A DNA stretch of 64,000 bases from Pedobacter psychrodurus (GTDB taxonomy: Bacteria; Bacteroidota; Bacteroidia; Sphingobacteriales; Sphingobacteriaceae). Under the pieces are notes generated by a model. It saw only the letters and a list, made by a program, of their open reading frames with translations, was not told the origin of the DNA and ran no database searches. Below, in pieces: positions 45,563 to 52,964 of this stretch (positions are counted from its first letter, which is position 1; every line of letters starts with the position of its first letter). The stretch is from NCBI RefSeq assembly GCF_004331735.1, contig NZ_SJSO01000008.1, forward strand, positions 124,001 to 188,000, in the 5' to 3' direction. The position numbers and the translations under genes were made by a program.

Positions 45563-46017
45563 ACGCTGATATTTTTAATTCTATTTTTTTAACAGAGCCG
45601 ACAAAGGCACGCATCCATCAATTTTATATGATGATTGTAATGTCTTTTATCAAAACGCTGTTGTGAAAGTGCTAACCCTATTGCCCGACAAACAACTGAA
45701 TTTTTAGTTAGGGAAATTTAAAATAGTAATCAGGATGATATACGTGTAAATTACTAAAAACTAAGCTTTTATATTTGTTTTCAAGCGCAAGAAGTTAAAG
45801 AACTTTGTTATAACAAATATATATACGGTGGCCCTTTTTTGTGAACCAAAGTTGTTAACACCTCACCCAATTGCTGGGGAAAAACGATCAGTCGAATATC
45901 ATTTTCAAGCGAAAAAAAAGCTAATCGTTTCTTTTCAAGGGTTTAGCAAACAAAAATGAGTGTTAATAACTTAAATTTGAGGGGTATAATAAGCCCTAAA
46001 TAGAGCTAAAAAGAGTG
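45563..46017. other. 455-bp region upstream of nrdB
   Basis: No ORF. It must hold the nrdB promoter on the minus strand. I looked for an NrdR-box-like pair (ACACnATATATnGTGT) and found none convincing. GTTATAACAAATATATATAC (45808-45827) and TGTTAACACCTCACCC (45851-45866) are the most structured words. Loose pairing of AAACGAT with ATCGTTT is possible at 45883 and 45924. Confidence 0.35.
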
Positions 46018-46398
46018 TTACTCAAGCGTATAACTAAGGCTTACTTTAGCTATGCCTTTACTATAAATACCAATCTGTTTTGCTGCACGTTCAGACAGAT
46101 CTATAGCTAATCTTTTAGAGAAAGGACCACGGTCATTTATTTTCACTACTACTGATTTTCCGTTATCAGGATTGGTTACTGTAACCAAGGTGCCAAATGG
46201 CAAAGTAAGGTGGGCGGCCGTTAATTTTTTTGCCCTATATTTGGCGCCGCTGGTGGTTCGGCGGCCTTCGAATTTTCTGTGATAATAAGTGGCGAGAACT
46301 GTTTTTTTAATGCTATCTGGTTCGTTTGATGAATCAGAGTCTTGTGCTTTACCTTGTAAAAACAGGAAACAAAAACTTAATAACAGCAGATACTTCAT
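46018..46398 (-). CDS. rlpA: RlpA-like double-psi beta-barrel lipoprotein/secreted protein
   Basis: 126 residues with a Sec signal (cut near GKAQ). The DPBB domain is complete: TYYHRKFEGRRTTSGAKY, LTAAHLTLPFGTLVTVTN, VVVKINDRGPFSKRLAIDLS and the catalytic Asp in NDRGPF. No SPOR domain, so it is the short form found in Bacteroidota. RlpA proteins cleave naked glycan strands at the septum. Whether this short form is catalytic is not known. Confidence 0.92.
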   Translation of the reverse strand: MKYLLLLSFCFLFLQGKAQDSDSSNEPDSIKKTVLATYYHRKFEGRRTTSGAKYRAKKLTAAHLTLPFGTLVTVTNPDNGKSVVVKINDRGPFSKRLAIDLSERAAKQIGIYSKGIAKVSLSYTLE

Positions 46399-46491
46399 AG
46401 GCTAAATTTTCTTTATCGAGCCTGCAAATATAAGCATTTAGTTTATAATCAATAATTTGGGGAAAAACAGCCTTATTTTGTGCATTAAAAA

Positions 46492-46518
46492 AGGCGTACA
46501 ACTTATTGCTGTACGCCT
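46492..46518 (-). terminator. Intrinsic terminator of msrB
   Basis: AGGCGTACA (46492-46500) and TGTACGCCT (46510-46518) form a perfect 9-bp stem; on the minus strand TTTTTTAATG follows. Lies 24 bases after the msrB stop. Confidence 0.88.
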
Positions 46519-46542
46519 CTACCTAACCCTACTATACCCACC

Positions 46543-47046
46543 TTATTTTTTATCCGGCACGAAATTCATTGAGATAGAATTTACACAATGACGGGTGTCT
46601 TTATTGGTAAATCCTTCGCCTACAAATACGTGACCAAGATGCGCGCCACAATTGGCACAAACTATTTCTGTACGTGAACCATCTGCATCAGGAATACGCT
46701 TTACAGCGCCTTTAATTTCGTCGTCGAAAGCAGGCCAGCCACAACGTGCATCGAACTTGCTCTCAGAACGGTATAGGGCTGCATTACAACGTTTGCAGGT
46801 ATACGTTCCTTTATCTGTTGTATGCTCGTATTTACCTGTACCAGGGTATTCTGTACCTTTATTTACAATTACTCTTTCTTCTTCGGGTGTTAATGGATTC
46901 CAGTTCATTTTCTTCTTTGGTATGATTTGTTCTGTTTCCTTCGATTGTTTTACGGCTTTCTTATCTTGCTTTTGTGCACAAGCTGAAAGACCTGTTATTA
47001 AAACAACAGCAGAAAGCAAAAATAGTTTATTTAACATCGTTTTCAT
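46543..47046 (-). CDS. msrB: Peptide-methionine (R)-S-oxide reductase, lipoprotein
   Basis: 167 residues. A signal with lipobox LSAC (Cys about 23) means it is an envelope lipoprotein rather than cytoplasmic. MsrB core: EYPGTGKYEHTTDKGTYTCK, two CxxC zinc pairs in CKRCNA and CANCGAHLGHVF, and the catalytic Cys in DTRHCVNSISMNF. It repairs methionine-R-sulfoxide in exported proteins. Electron donor would have to reach the periplasm. Confidence 0.95.
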   Translation of the reverse strand: MKTMLNKLFLLSAVVLITGLSACAQKQDKKAVKQSKETEQIIPKKKMNWNPLTPEEERVIVNKGTEYPGTGKYEHTTDKGTYTCKRCNAALYRSESKFDARCGWPAFDDEIKGAVKRIPDADGSRTEIVCANCGAHLGHVFVGEGFTNKDTRHCVNSISMNFVPDKK

Positions 47047-47607
47047 ACCTCAATATACGCTATAGATTTTGTTTTGGTTTGCTGGTTTTGAATTATGGCG
47101 TACAGTTTACAGAGCGATGATAAATGTGTGTTTTTAGTTGGGAGTTTTGGGTGCAGAACCTCACCCTAACAAAGTTTGGGTGGTATGTTCTTTTTCTACA
47201 CGTCCCTCTCCTGGAGGAGAGGAAACGAGGGTTAGTGGTTTTAACCCATAGCCTAACCACTCCTATAGCCTCTTCCACACATGGTTATGGGGAAATTGGG
47301 TTCAATGGATTCAACCTCGTAGTTAAGCTTAGTCAAAAGCTTTAAGATTAGCTTACCTAAGCACTTGCGTGGTTCACACCTGCGCGAGAACGACGGAATG
47401 AAAACGAAAAAAGACAGGAATGAAAGCCCAGCTTTGTGTGCTTTGTGCCTTAGTGGTTAACAAACCTTAGCGCTCTCTGCGGTTAAACGATGTGAGATCA
47501 AAAACCAATTCTTTTCCGTGCCTTCAGTGCTTCCGTGGCAAAATCACAAACAAAAAGCGTCCCGAAATTAATCGAAACGCTTCTTTTTATAATGAGACTT
47601 TTAAACC
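47047..47607. other. 561-bp gene-free region with repeat words and the sucD terminator
   Basis: Patchwork of repeats: AGTTGGGAGTTTTGGGT (47136-47152), CCTCTCCTGGAGGAGAGG (47205-47222), and CTTTGTGCCTTAGTGGTTAA (47441-47460) with CTTCCGTGGCAAAATCAC. At 47554-47582 a GU-containing stem (AAAGCGTCCCGA with TCGAAACGCTT) reads on the minus strand as the sucD terminator with TTTTTG after it. ORFs at 47124-47345 appear random. Confidence 0.55.
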
Positions 47608-48480
47608 TTATTTTGCTAATTCTTCTGCCATTGCAGCACCAATTTCAGCAGGGCTTTCTACTACACGAATACCACACTCACGCATGATTTTCATTTTAGC
47701 AGCTGCAGTATCATCGGCACCGCCAACAATAGCACCAGCATGGCCCATTCTACGTCCCGCAGGCGCAGTTTGACCAGCGATGAAACCAACAACAGGCTTA
47801 GTACCGTGTTCTTTGATCCAACGGGCAGCTTCAGCTTCCATTCCACCACCAATCTCACCAATCATGATGATACCGTGTGTTTCAGGATCGTTCATTAATA
47901 ATTTAACTGCTTCTACAGTTGGTGTTCCGATAATTGGGTCACCACCAATACCGATAGCCGTTGTAATACCTAAACCAGCTTTAACCACTTGGTCTACCGC
48001 TTCGTAGGTTAAAGTTCCTGATTTAGAAACCACGCCTACATGACCTTTTTTGAAGATAAACCCTGGCATGATACCAATTTTAGCTTCATCGGCAGTAATT
48101 ACACCTGGGCAGTTAGGGCCTATAAGGGTAACATCGCGATCAGCAATATATTCTTTAACCTGAATCATATCCTTAGTTGGGATACCCTCAGTAATACAAA
48201 CAATAACTTTAATACCGCCTTCGGCAGCTTCCATAATTGCATCAGCAGCAAAAGCTGGTGGTACAAAAATGATAGATACATTTGCACCCGTTTTATCAAC
48301 GGCATCTTTAACAGTATTAAAAACAGGCTTTTCTAAATGCAATTGCCCACCTTTGCCAGGCGTTACACCACCAACTACGTTTGTACCATAGGCCAGCATC
48401 TGCTCAGCATGGTAAGTTCCTTCGTTTCCGGTAAAACCCTGAACGATAACCTTAGAATCTTTATTTACTAAAACGCTCAT
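47608..48480 (-). CDS. sucD: Succinyl-CoA synthetase alpha subunit
   Basis: 290 residues. [19 protein letters not shown] and GGVTPGKGG for CoA binding, [20 protein letters not shown], and the phosphorylated His in [13 protein letters not shown] near residue 250. It makes ATP or GTP from succinyl-CoA in the citric acid cycle, with a beta subunit (sucC) that is not in this window. Upstream lies the long repeat region. Confidence 0.98.
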
Positions 48481-48639
48481 GTATCAATATTTTTTTGTGC
48501 AAAGCTAATATTATTGTAATGGAATTCAAATCTAAAACCATATTATTTAGTCCGTTTTTTCAGGAAAATGTAAGGAAATGCTTTATGGCGGCTATAGCCC
48601 GTCATACGCTTTATCCAGAAGTAAAGTTGAGAGTGCCTT

Positions 48640-49191
48640 TATAGCGCTTAGATACAAAAAAGAAATCCTTTTTGCACCATATCAGGAGCAAGCCTTTCGG
48701 TTATAAACAGGAGTGTAGTAACATAAAGCGGATTGAAGAGCTTCAAACAGCAAAAACGGTAAACTGTTCGTTCTCAAATAAAAAATGTTAATGTTTAGGA
48801 AATGAACAGTTCAGTTCTTTTGGCGGCTTTCAGTCCCGCTCCCGCTTCTGCCGATGAAACCTGTGAAAAAGCAAGCACACCATAAAACAAGAAAAACAAG
48901 TGCTTAAATCGGCATCACGCTTTGATCGGGTTTAGTTACAGCGGTTAAATGATTTTGGCCACATGCTAGCAGCAAACCATTCGGTTATAAACCTGACAGG
49001 AACGGCAGCCTCCGATTTAAGCACCGGTTTATGTTATATTTTGGTGTGCTTGCTTGTTTCACAGGTCTTCTATCGGAGCTATAGTGGATGGCAGGGCTTC
49101 AAACGCCAAGAACTACAGCCCGTTCGTTTTCAAATCAAAAACATTAATGCCTAGGGTTAAGAAATAAGCAGTCTGGTTCTTTTGGAGGTTT
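48640..49191. repeat. Composite repeat: two direct copies plus two inverted mini-elements
   Basis: Direct copies D1 (48640-48830) and D2 (48937-49191) share, in order: TATAGCGCTTAGAT / TACAGCGGTTAAAT, TTCGGTTATAAAC, GCTTCAAAC, CTCAAAT / TTCAAAT, TTAATG, GAAAT and TTCTTTTGG. D2 is 64 bases longer because it contains arm B. Arms A (48851-48912) and B (49012-49076) are inverted copies (about 80 percent by eye), each with CCGAT/ATCGG ends and an AAGCAC...GTGCTT hairpin inside. The whole 815-base gap around it (48481-49295) has no convincing gene. Confidence 0.7.
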
Positions 49192-49295
49192 AGTAACAAA
49201 GTGCTGGTGCTTGTGGCAACATCCATGCAAAACGCTTAAATTTATCTTTTGAGCTTAAAGATTAAAGACCAAAGCTAAAAGACTAAATATACATA

Positions 49296-49721
49296 ATGAA
49301 AAAATTAATTCCAATCGCAACCATTTTTGCAAGCTTTTTTGTTTCAATAAATGCCCATGCGCAAAGTACCGACACTACTAAATATATTCTCCAAAACGAT
49401 GTTGAAATAGCCAAAGAAGAACCAGGAACACATAATGGTGGTGGTAAAACAATTGGTTTTAACTTTTTTGGCGATGCTAAAAATCTGAAAACAGCATTCC
49501 GTAAAAGGATTTTAAAACCAGGCTCTTCTATTGGTTACCATTTACAAAAAGAAGATGAGATTTATTATGTGATCAGCGGAAACGGAACCATGCAGATGAA
49601 CGGAAAAACCTTTGCTGTTAAACCTGGTGATGCCATTTTAACCCGGCCAGGGAGTTCGCATGGTATTACCCCAAATGCGGGTAACGACTTGACCATTTTA
49701 ATTGTTTACGAAAAGAAATGA
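49296..49721 (+). CDS. Secreted cupin-domain protein
   Basis: 141 residues with a Sec signal (cut near HAHAQ). The cupin barrel is of the small single-domain type: SIGYHLQKEDEIYYVISGNG holds the first motif (H, then E) and GDAILTRPGSSHGI holds the second with His. These supply a metal site. Function is not predictable; mannose-6-phosphate isomerase-like binding proteins and quercetinase-like enzymes share the fold. It is the first gene after the repeat region. Confidence 0.88.
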   Translation: MKKLIPIATIFASFFVSINAHAQSTDTTKYILQNDVEIAKEEPGTHNGGGKTIGFNFFGDAKNLKTAFRKRILKPGSSIGYHLQKEDEIYYVISGNGTMQMNGKTFAVKPGDAILTRPGSSHGITPNAGNDLTILIVYEKK

Positions 49722-49744
49722 TGATATTCGGACCTAAGCCATTT

Positions 49745-49810
49745 CCTCCCCCTTCGGAGGGGATAAGGATAGCGCTATTTTTCATCCCCCTGCCCCCTTC
49801 AAAGGGGGAC
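49745..49810. repeat. Hairpin repeat of CCCCCTTCGGAGGGG type
   Basis: CTCCCCCTTCGGAGGGGAT and later GCCCCCTTCAAAGGGGGAC form two hairpins. They lie between the cupin and transporter genes and may terminate the first. Confidence 0.6.
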
Positions 49811-49845
49811 GTTGGATACTACAACTAGAGAACAGATAACCAAAA

Positions 49846-50535
49846 ATGGAACTAGAAAAACATTATACCAATAGAACGGGCTGGCTAAGGGCTGCCGTAC
49901 TTGGTGCCAACGATGGCATTATTTCTACAACCAGTTTGGTTATTGGTATTGCCGCAGCCAGTGATACGAGGAGTCCGATTGTACTGGCAGCCCTGGCTGG
50001 ATTAGTGGCTGGTGCACTATCTATGGCTGCTGGCGAATATGTTTCGGTAAGCTCACAGGCCGATATTGAAAAAGCAGATCTGGCACGCGAGCAAATAGAA
50101 CTCGAAACCATGCCTGAGGTAGAGCTGAAAGAACTTGCCAAGATATATGTAGCGCAAGGCTTAGATGAAGATTTAGCGATGCAGGTGGCCATAAAATTAA
50201 CCGAGAAAGATGCTTTATTAGCACATGCAAGAGACGAACTGGGCATTAACGAGATTACCCAGCCAAAACCACTTCAAGCTGCTTTTGCATCTGGAGCATC
50301 TTTTATCAGCGGCGGCATCTTACCCTTTCTTGTTGCTTTTCTTGCTCCGATAAAGTCGATGGTATTTTATCAATACGGTTTTGCCATCGTATTCTTGGCT
50401 TTATCGGGTGCAATTGCAGCAAAGGCAGGTGGCTCAAGTATGATTAAAGGGATATTACGAATTTGTTTCTGGGGAACTGTTGCCATGGTAATAACTGCTT
50501 TAGCCGGATATCTCTTTGGCACTAAGATCAGTTAA
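49846..50535 (+). CDS. VIT1/CCC1 family metal transporter
   Basis: 229 residues. RAAVLGANDGIISTTSLVIG is the family signature of the first span, and AGEYVSVSSQADIEKADLAR the conserved part after span 2. A charged cytoplasmic helix with EQIELETMPEVELKEL, the metal-binding domain, follows, then three more spans. It should move iron or manganese out of the cytoplasm. The charged helix is the short bacterial form. Confidence 0.93.
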   Translation: MELEKHYTNRTGWLRAAVLGANDGIISTTSLVIGIAAASDTRSPIVLAALAGLVAGALSMAAGEYVSVSSQADIEKADLAREQIELETMPEVELKELAKIYVAQGLDEDLAMQVAIKLTEKDALLAHARDELGINEITQPKPLQAAFASGASFISGGILPFLVAFLAPIKSMVFYQYGFAIVFLALSGAIAAKAGGSSMIKGILRICFWGTVAMVITALAGYLFGTKIS

Positions 50536-50696
50536 GAGTTCTCCGCAGGCATTTTAAGGTTTTGAGTTCTGTACTCGCAGTAGCTCATCACCTAACGGCT
50601 TTTAAAAATCACACAAACGTTTGTTCTAATTTTTAATTAAAATTTTACCTAATTTTCATTAACATCAATAATCTAACAACGTAAACTCAACATCAC

Positions 50697-52964
50697 ATGA
50701 AAAAAGCATTTCTGTTCTTTTGCAGTTTTAGCACCTGGGCAATATCTTATGCGCAACAATTTAAAATGCCTGCAAATAAAGTTTTCGAATATGTAAACGA
50801 GCAGCGCATTGATGCACAAAAAAAAGAACTTGAGCGATTCTCTTATACCTTTCATTCCTTGGATAAAAAAGAAGGAGAAGATAATTTATTTGAATTTAAA
50901 ATCTCAGGGGCAGTGATTAAGGGAGGTCAAATTTTCAAAACAATACTTCATACAGACAGCATCAGGAATGCCCATTTGAATTCCAGCAATGGCTTAATTA
51001 CGCTGGCATTATTAAACAAACCCCTGGTTGTGCAAGTAAGCCCAAAAGGTAAAGTAGTCAGTATTAAAGGAGCTAAAGAAGCCCTGGAATTAGCTTTCAA
51101 AAAGTGGGAAATAAAAAAAGAATTTTCTGCCTCCTTTATAAACGAAGGCTGTAAATCGTTAGATAAAAAAATACAGGAATTATTTTTTAAGTTTCCTAAT
51201 TTACCTCTAAAAGCATCTACCAAATGGCTTGATGAGAGTGGAAACCTGACCTACACGGTTGATAAAATTAAAGATAACGTTTATTACATCAGCGCAATCA
51301 ACACAGAATACAAAAATTATGATGTAAAAGCAGTATACCAGCTTGAATACCCATCAGGTTTGATCAGAAATTACAAGTTTAAATCAAATAACGCTTCTAC
51401 CAATAAAGAAGCTGGAGAATTTAAATTAAACCGATCAATTAGTATCAGCAATATAATTAGTAATAAAAAGATAGATACAGCCTGGATTAATATGGCCGCA
51501 AAGTTGAGCTATTGGAGCAGCAGTTTAAGAAAGGCAGGCAATGAATATGACTCCATTAAAGCAGTAACGGCTTTTAAAACTTATGATAAACTATTTGCTA
51601 ATGACCAATATTATGCAGTTCAAAAATTAGCGATTATTCAGCAATTGGGGAATTATAAAATCTATGATAGCTTATTGTTAAAAACACCAAACGAATACAT
51701 TAAAAATGAAGGTTCACATCTCCACAACAAATTACAAGAGGTTATAGATCAAGGCAATGCAACTGAAGCTTACGAAATATGCAAATACCTTTATAAAGCA
51801 AACCCAAATTCGTTTAGAGATTGGATACAGAATTCCCTTGCTCAGAAATTCATCATGTCGCATCAGTTTGAAGGAAGGGATAAAATAGAAAAAAACAGCT
51901 ATGAGCTTTTAACGCTGTTCCAAAAAGACAAAGCAATGTACAATAAAAACATTGCTCCCTTGTACTTATGGACATTGGCCAAGAAAAACCCAGATAATAT
52001 CCTTGCGCTGCTTCAAACAGCGAAAGATATAAGTACATTTGATGTTAAAGACGGCAATGCTGGCAGATACGCGCTGCTTACCTGCCAAATGTTATTTAAC
52101 AATGGCAAACTGGCCGAAGCCGAAAATTTGCTTGTAAGCACTACAGAAAAACTGTACAAAGCAACAATAGATACATTAAACAATATACGTTTTGCACAAC
52201 AAAATCTATTGGCTTATGCCTACTATCTTAAATATCAGCAAGAGGCGGAAAAAGACAGTGTTAATGCAGTAAAATACCTTGCCCTGGCAGCTAAATTTTC
52301 TCCTAAAAACACGAAAGAAAAATCTCATGACAGCTTTTATGACCGTGCGTTTTTAAAGTCGAAGGAAAATTACCGAGAAGATTATCTAAACAAGATATTG
52401 GCCAGTAAAGATGACGATCAGTTTTTAAGCTTAGTTAAGGAAGATATTAATACCAATCCAGATAACTTAACTACCATGCAAGCCCTTTTTACAAAAAGAT
52501 TCGCTGAAAAAAGTTTTAAGGCTTTTTTTGTAAACGATGTAGTTGAGAACTGGCAAAAAGCACCGGATTTCTCATTAAAATATGGCGACAGTATTTCATA
52601 CCATTCCGAATCGTTTAAAAATAAGTGGACGGTACTCGATTTTTGGGGTACCTGGTGTGGTCCATGTAGAGAAGAGATGCCTAAGGTGAATAAGTTTTAC
52701 GAGGAGTCGAAGTCAGGCAAACATGGCAAGGTTAATTTTTTAAGCATTGCTTGCCAAGACACAGAAATAGCGGTTGCAGGCTACCTTAAAGAAAATAAAT
52801 TTTCTATCCCCGTAGCCTTATCAGATGGCATTGTACAAAGAAATTATAAAATTGACGGTTATCCTTCGAAAATTTTAATCTCTCCAAGTGGTAAAATGAT
52901 CAATATCGAATTTGGAAAAGATTGGCTGGATATTTTAAAATCTTTTCAGTCTATTTCGGAATAA
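50697..52964 (+). CDS. Secreted TlpA-like thioredoxin-fold protein with long N-terminal region
   Basis: 755 residues with a Sec signal (cut near ISYAQ). The last 140 residues are a TlpA/ResA-like thioredoxin domain: WGTWCGPCREEMPKV with CxxC at C654-C657 and the cis-Pro in DGYPSKILI. About 570 residues precede it: a beta-rich part (residues about 30-260) and a helical, TPR-like part (270-600, e.g. DTLNNIRFAQQNLLAYAYYL). Many Bacteroidota encode such fusions; the thioredoxin part should keep periplasmic thiols reduced. Role of the N-terminal region is unknown. Confidence 0.85.
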   Translation: MKKAFLFFCSFSTWAISYAQQFKMPANKVFEYVNEQRIDAQKKELERFSYTFHSLDKKEGEDNLFEFKISGAVIKGGQIFKTILHTDSIRNAHLNSSNGLITLALLNKPLVVQVSPKGKVVSIKGAKEALELAFKKWEIKKEFSASFINEGCKSLDKKIQELFFKFPNLPLKASTKWLDESGNLTYTVDKIKDNVYYISAINTEYKNYDVKAVYQLEYPSGLIRNYKFKSNNASTNKEAGEFKLNRSISISNIISNKKIDTAWINMAAKLSYWSSSLRKAGNEYDSIKAVTAFKTYDKLFANDQYYAVQKLAIIQQLGNYKIYDSLLLKTPNEYIKNEGSHLHNKLQEVIDQGNATEAYEICKYLYKANPNSFRDWIQNSLAQKFIMSHQFEGRDKIEKNSYELLTLFQKDKAMYNKNIAPLYLWTLAKKNPDNILALLQTAKDISTFDVKDGNAGRYALLTCQMLFNNGKLAEAENLLVSTTEKLYKATIDTLNNIRFAQQNLLAYAYYLKYQQEAEKDSVNAVKYLALAAKFSPKNTKEKSHDSFYDRAFLKSKENYREDYLNKILASKDDDQFLSLVKEDINTNPDNLTTMQALFTKRFAEKSFKAFFVNDVVENWQKAPDFSLKYGDSISYHSESFKNKWTVLDFWGTWCGPCREEMPKVNKFYEESKSGKHGKVNFLSIACQDTEIAVAGYLKENKFSIPVALSDGIVQRNYKIDGYPSKILISPSGKMINIEFGKDWLDILKSFQSISE

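Follow-up and report, generated by a model that had tools for sequence, protein, structure and literature searches.

A BIME-like array in Pedobacter psychrodurus with a possible nested mini-element in its hairpin loops

A palindromic array in the sucD–cupin gap

The gap at 48481–49295 of the window (the whole 64,000-nt stretch of Pedobacter psychrodurus DNA analysed here) lies between a sucD-like gene (47608–48480, minus strand) and a cupin-like gene (49296–49721, plus strand). The sole open reading frame (ORF) of at least 60 aa in the gap, 63 aa long (48963–49154), crosses repeated sequence. An earlier note on this DNA had described two tandem copies of one sequence here, D1 (48640–48830) and D2 (48937–49191), one of them split by an inverted mini-element with arms A and B. 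The gap contains a BIME-like array of five palindromic units, U1 to U5, of alternating orientation, spanning about 48572–49226; the same alternation is seen by eye in the orthologs of the window. Unit boundaries in the window were set by eye against these orthologs. G and L numbers are our labels for genomes and loci. The features are as follows.

48572–48665, plus strand: U1, decayed, left half AAGGAAATG..GGCGGCTATAGCCCGTCATACGCTTTATCCAGAAG; compared with the orthologous gaps of G334, G150 and G230, limits by eye
48667–48786, minus strand: U2, hairpin top lost, the core of D1; aligns with U4, and orthologs retain the top (by eye)
48794–48960, plus strand: U3, complete, with a filled tip; own-genome matches and alignment, limits by eye
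48850–48913, plus strand: inner stem of U3, GCCGAT/ATCGGC, enclosing the module (arm A); sequence, shuffle-tested alignment and covariation among 45 copies
48860–48905, plus strand: module in the U3 tip, 46 nt, without one base (indel); alignment
48961–49142, minus strand: U4, complete, with a filled tip, the core of D2; own-genome matches, alignment and orthologs, limits by eye
49010–49078, minus strand: inner stem of U4, CTCCGAT/ATCGGAG, enclosing the module (arm B); sequence and shuffle-tested alignment
49019–49065, minus strand: module in the U4 tip, 47 nt; matches, alignment and orthologs
49156–49226, plus strand: U5, entire hairpin deleted, left and right flanks remaining; hairpin kept in G325, G150, G266 and G334 (by eye)

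Complete units measure ~165–180 nt, and aligned copies share one layout. A left flank (TTTTGGAAANGA..) is followed by the outer stem, CCCGCT..ATCGGG or a version with compensating changes; within it come the inner stem (CCGAT..ATCGG) and the loop, and the unit closes with its right flank (GGTTTA..). The similarities reported in the earlier note are real. D1 and D2 resemble each other in the same order (their local alignment scores 66, where 500 dinucleotide shuffles reach 26 at most, and a repeat search gives stretches of 76 nt at 74% and 46 nt at 72%), D2 is the longer by 64 nt, and arms A and B form an inverted repeat of 47 nt, 83% complementary, with a spacing of 99 nt. D1 consists of U2 and the head of U3, and D2 of U4 and the head of U5, so that what had been read as a tandem duplication with one split copy is a pair of successive minus–plus parts of an alternating array, D1 being the degraded copy; arms A and B correspond to the tops of the hairpins in U3 and U4, two mutually inverted units. 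The 64-nt excess of D2 comprises a conserved insert of 47 nt (46 nt in its arm A counterpart), the remainder being mainly, by eye, the hairpin top lost by U2 in D1. The inverted mini-element within the repeats, the other part of that claim, stands: U3 and U4 both hold a module, and orthologous units occur with and without it. The interval separating the cupin-like gene from the gene that follows holds a further palindromic stretch, CCTCCCCCTTCGGAGGGG..CCCCCTTCAAAGGGGG (49740–49815).

Sequence, copy number and range of the tip module

Common to the loops of U3 and U4 is a module of ~47 nt, CCTGTGAAACAAGCAAGCA...TGCTT, the two copies aligning with a score of 52 against a shuffle maximum of 27. 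The repeat recurs elsewhere, whereas the earlier note would have counted a lack of other copies against its reading: with the gap as BLAST query the own genome gave 77 matches at 34 places besides the window. The 77 take in the window's own matches, count the two strands of a place separately, and include eight that touch only a purine-rich run. This run (49249–49287) lies just ahead of the cupin-like gene, recurs elsewhere in the own genome and, by eye, also precedes several orthologs of that gene. The module core alone has 22 matches at up to three mismatches in the own genome, against none for a reversed control; with the indel copy in U3 the total is 23. Overlap with a coding gene, which the earlier note had named as evidence against its reading, was not found in the data searched: none of these 23 copies lies inside an ORF of at least 120 aa.

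Among 301 genomes of the family, the module (up to one mismatch) occurs in 31: 30 of the 69 Pedobacter genomes and 1 of the 232 others, where the single match apparently falls within coding sequence. A search of a named genome collection agrees, 78 of 79 matching stretches being titled Pedobacter and one a Sphingobacteriaceae MAG. The exact module pattern had no match in viral contigs, nor did blastn with a 73-nt consensus find one among plasmids and phages. With up to two mismatches allowed, the module has 32 matches in G325, the most among seven genomes, and several of these form close pairs 312–426 bases apart.

The 125 non-redundant copies are conserved at both ends, over the first 22 bases (AAACCTG..) and the final 7 (TGCTTAA), with an AT-rich middle that varies; the search key was the first 19 bases of CCTGTG.., so that conservation there stems partly from hit selection. 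The 3' end lies outside the key, yet at most one mismatch to it was demanded for the 125-copy set, a filter that 146 of 152 copies passed. The distance from CCTGTG to TGCTT is 44–50 nt, and exactly 47 in 80 of the 146. In the alignment the module ends in CCTGTG and TGCTT, without terminal inverted repeats. Near one terminus it bears a hairpin, AAGCAY/RTGCTT (96.3% of cells paired), single and not one per end. The 152-copy set excludes copies with less than 90 nt upstream or 160 nt downstream before the end of the locus. Three rows were dropped as well: L083 (a coding chance match, G086), L254 (G329 at L022, partial and judged paralogous) and a contig-edge match of G150 at L026. The six copies without a TGCTTAA-like end were left out of the length, outer-stem, family, empty-site and correlation counts.

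Covarying stems around the module

Of 152 non-identical module copies in fetched Pedobacter DNA, 138 sit directly within a stem that is 5 bp or longer; by eye, the other 14 have mostly decayed stems, with L312 resembling a chance match and L094 a truncation. In 45 copies hand-picked from the 125, 88.7% of stem cells are paired against 80.5% after shuffling, and 45 cells are changed on both sides against 12.6 shuffled. The terminal pair of the module's own hairpin is C-G in 28 of these copies and U-A in 13. For the outer stem, a count over a fixed list of 4-mers and rows with one candidate gave CCCG/CGGG in 39, CCTG/CAGG in 36, CGGG/CCCG in 3 and mismatches in 6. Compensatory changes, whose lack the earlier note would have counted against its reading, are present in the data searched, in inner and outer stems alike.

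Unrelated backbones share the module

Sorted by their flanks, the 146 copies fall into family 1 (92), 1b (13), 1c (4), family 2 (19) and others (18), the last including two loci, L327 and L348, with yet another, third hairpin (CTCCATTTCG..CGAAATG). Pairs from different families whose modules reach 92% identity or more in the variable part number 111; 51 of them join families 1 and 2, and 58 join 1 and 1b. Arm identity between families 1 and 2 averages 49% on the left and 46% on the right, and 47% and 46% after shuffling (a sample of 247 pairs); judged from this shuffled level of similarity, the arms of the two families are unrelated. Family 1b was likewise considered as an unrelated backbone and rejected: its arms match those of family 1 at 55% and 54%, above the shuffled 49% and 47%, and it is treated as a subfamily.

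Within the own genome, similarity of module and backbone is correlated (r 0.38, 0 of 2000 permutations), which suggests that some filled units spread as units; without the four family 2 copies, which share one module lineage, the correlation is 0.12 (p 0.16). The units of G209 and G094 at the window locus give no module match at up to one mismatch, so that the backbone is older or more widespread than the module.

Filled and empty sites

For 38 of the 146 filled copies, an empty counterpart of at least 85% identity was found in the fetched DNA; these represent only 18 distinct loci, many counterparts are paralogs, and for most the direction, insertion or excision, is not polarised. The length of the empty site minus that of the joined flanks is 0 in 12 cases, −1 in 20, −2 in 3, +1 in 2 and +2 in 1. 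A typical pair reads CCGATGAAAAAATCGG when empty and CCGATGAAA-module-AAATCGG when filled. With net lengths so near zero, target duplication in its usual form, which the earlier note had proposed to look for around arms A and B, is absent.

The same presence and absence is seen at orthologous positions in sister species. The ortholog of U4 is empty in G150 and filled in G306 and G325, with nearly identical flanks in G150 and G306. At L022, a filled unit of the own genome, nine orthologs comprise, by eye, six with the same inner stem and an empty loop, one with another stem and an empty loop, and two without a hairpin. The ten orthologs of L041 comprise seven empty, two filled and one filled within an inverted element (by eye). 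In this last case, the orthologous site of G325 (L284) holds an entire family 2 element, along with its module, in the opposite orientation to L041 (own), L128 and L112. Slippage deletion was considered as a cause of empty tips and is unlikely where the empty loop retains the bases of both flanks (GAAAAA).

When eight filled loci of the own genome were compared with 7–10 sister species each, any module was present in 5 of 71 orthologous intervals, and one at the same site and orientation in 2 of 71, a figure biased downward by hand-picking the eight from 21 filled own loci and omitting L027, which clusters with filled loci of G266 and G230. A looser position test, which may miss indel cases and may count similar arrays, found that 10 of the 23 own copies have a filled counterpart, syntenically placed, in one or more of the relatives fetched. 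Many sites thus appear to predate the own species.

A candidate loop-inserting mini-element

The array belongs to a family of known kind, with REP/BIME elements the nearest, and the nested loop module is its new part. Our tentative reading, held with somewhat less than even confidence, is that a non-autonomous mobile mini-element of ~47 nt is nested in the hairpin loops of two units of this BIME-like array. The clean presence and absence of the module may point to an enzyme acting on loops. A fuller proposal, which we regard as doubtful, is that the gene-free 47-nt module, mobilised in trans, enters single-stranded loops in unrelated hairpin families with precision and without duplicating the target; the tips would then form a class of landing site, and the modules would be nested parasites on REP-like parasites.

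Possibly, an extruded or single-stranded palindromic unit exposes its A-rich loop (GAAAAA or GAAGA) as a single-stranded target. A putative enzyme could recognise the conserved 5' strand of the module, AAACCTGTGAAACAAGCAAGCA, together with the small terminal hairpin AAGCAY..RTGCTT, and insert a copy in the loop. The host hairpin would be retained, since its stem could still form with a larger loop, and the array would spread and rearrange as other BIMEs do. Speaking against the proposal, the fold of single units as DNA is weak (z 0.31 and −1.31). If the module is indeed self-mobile, as the clean empty sites suggest, it would be a very small mobile DNA and would point to a hairpin-loop enzyme.

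Lacking terminal inverted repeats and target duplication, the module was rejected as a MITE of a DDE transposon. These same two features liken it to a mini-element derived from IS200/IS605, from which it differs in having no autonomous relative in the fetched DNA and no lagging-strand orientation bias. No autonomous relative with the same ends appeared in that DNA, a TGCTTAA-like end standing at the expected distance in 146 of 152 copies; two of the six end-less copies, L094 and L312 (the truncation and the chance match), were inspected by eye. In five complete genomes, 42 of 78 modules are co-oriented with replication (p 0.57), with origin and terminus assumed at the start and middle of the record and with G284 and G334 left out, their rRNA strands giving no clear replichores by eye. 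This absence of strand bias argues against a fork-linked mechanism of the IS200/IS605 type, which would lead to such a bias.

Alternative explanations

The main rival, which we consider unlikely as an account of the whole, is that recombination exchanges entire hairpin tops, module included, when cleaved palindromes are repaired from another dispersed copy; SbcCD is an example of a palindrome-cleaving enzyme. By eye, entire upper stems differ between orthologous units at L034 and L038, and the second unit of L022 has three kinds of top among sister species; bacterial repeat hairpins can evidently change their whole tops between sister species, and for this part of the data recombinational exchange is still a rival. 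One top, CAAGTCC..GGGCTTT, occurs in both a family 1 copy (L105) and a family 2-like copy (L108), and the single module lineage of the own-genome family 2 copies would also fit an exchange. However, the filled and empty orthologs at L022, L026, L041 and U4 keep the same or nearly the same stem bases beside the module, and the 51 pairs of near-identical modules in families 1 and 2 sit between arms at the shuffled level, where the only shared homology, by eye, is that of the inner-stem bases. A structured regulatory RNA, or a transcript element under selection, would account for the covarying stems, and the RNA folding of the U3–U4 pair is strong (−138.2 kcal/mol, z −9.84), although this is largely an effect of the inverted pairing. 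We regard this explanation as very improbable. Presence is often unconserved at orthologous sites and both orientations are found, and at the 19 filled own loci that have ORFs to the left and right, the neighbouring genes are variously divergent (3), convergent (3) or tandem (13). A search of 46000–52000 against Rfam at E of at most 1 gave two hits below their gathering scores, both off the repeat, and no match on the gap. The large structured RNA that the earlier note had offered as one of its two readings is not supported as the main one on these grounds, together with the alternation of units, their unconserved orientation to genes and the inverted element of G325.

The loop-inserting mini-element has also to be weighed against an ordinary REP/REPIN moved by a RAYT (TnpA-REP), with the module as the tip of one successful subfamily spreading as a whole unit. 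We consider this improbable, even though the alternation is BIME-like, the family 2 copies have their one module lineage, and the own genome encodes five Y1 transposases of the RAYT type (L078–L082). The ortholog of L082, broken copies counted, is found in 17 of 30 genomes with the module and in 2 of 39 without it; for L081-like proteins the figures are 29 of 30 and 18 of 39. All these associations are confounded by phylogeny. L078-like proteins, taken as a control, are not associated with the module (15 of 30 against 15 of 39), and the L082 ortholog is missing from 4 of 11 genomes with at least seven module copies. By eye, at least L079 and L081 have small REP arrays of their own that are unrelated to the units (GTCTTAGCG.. 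and GTCCGTAGAG..), and two or more backbone families whose arms are at shuffled similarity hold the module, as does the third hairpin of L327 and L348. No unit lies within about 1.5 kb of the five own RAYTs, one match at L081 being another dispersed repeat. Among 46 fetched RAYT loci, three of which are own ones again, one unit match exceeds 100 nt and three others are at most 48 nt. As cognate transposases, the RAYTs are thus unsupported by their flanks. Bacteroidetes RAYT genes of subclass 2.6 are described as flanked by atypical structures (PMC6006769); the present family does not stand beside the fetched RAYT genes, with one exception.

Comparison with known elements

Like REP, BIME and REPIN sequences, the units are multi-copy, intergenic, palindromic and covarying, and they alternate in orientation. 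They differ in length (~165–180 nt against 20–40), in their exchangeable tip with a nested module, and in that no cognate RAYT was found beside them. Elhai and colleagues are said to have described the small dispersed repeats of cyanobacteria in 2008 as very small mobile DNA. REP-targeting insertion sequences carry their own transposase and measure about a kilobase or more, whereas the module, for which REP palindromes would likewise be landing sites, is 47 nt long and non-coding.

Such palindromes are reported as preferred landing sites of IS1397, IS621 and ISKpn1 (PMC1525189), and ISPpu9 is reportedly another REP-targeting insertion sequence (PMC8450116). For the module itself, the nearest kind is boxB of the streptococcal BOX elements. 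This is a small inner module that in S. suis lies between two different kinds of flank, varies in copy number or may be absent, has a predicted fold that is largely independent of the flanks, and forms tandem arrays between boxA and boxC, with BOX elements causing target duplications (PMC3049150). The likeness lies in a small inner module within different flanks; in contrast to boxB, a loop here holds one module and there is no duplication. No described Pedobacter repeat of this kind surfaced in our literature search, which drew on partial texts, and we claim no wider absence from print.

Ends like TGTGGACACA and TGTGTCCACA mark another, longer insertion that lies in or beside the hairpin tips of array units: in the sucD–cupin gap at L211 (G212) and L209 (G303), at the own locus L031 near 1700, and at L112 (G150). 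Its occurrence at tips suggests that loops may attract more than one element.
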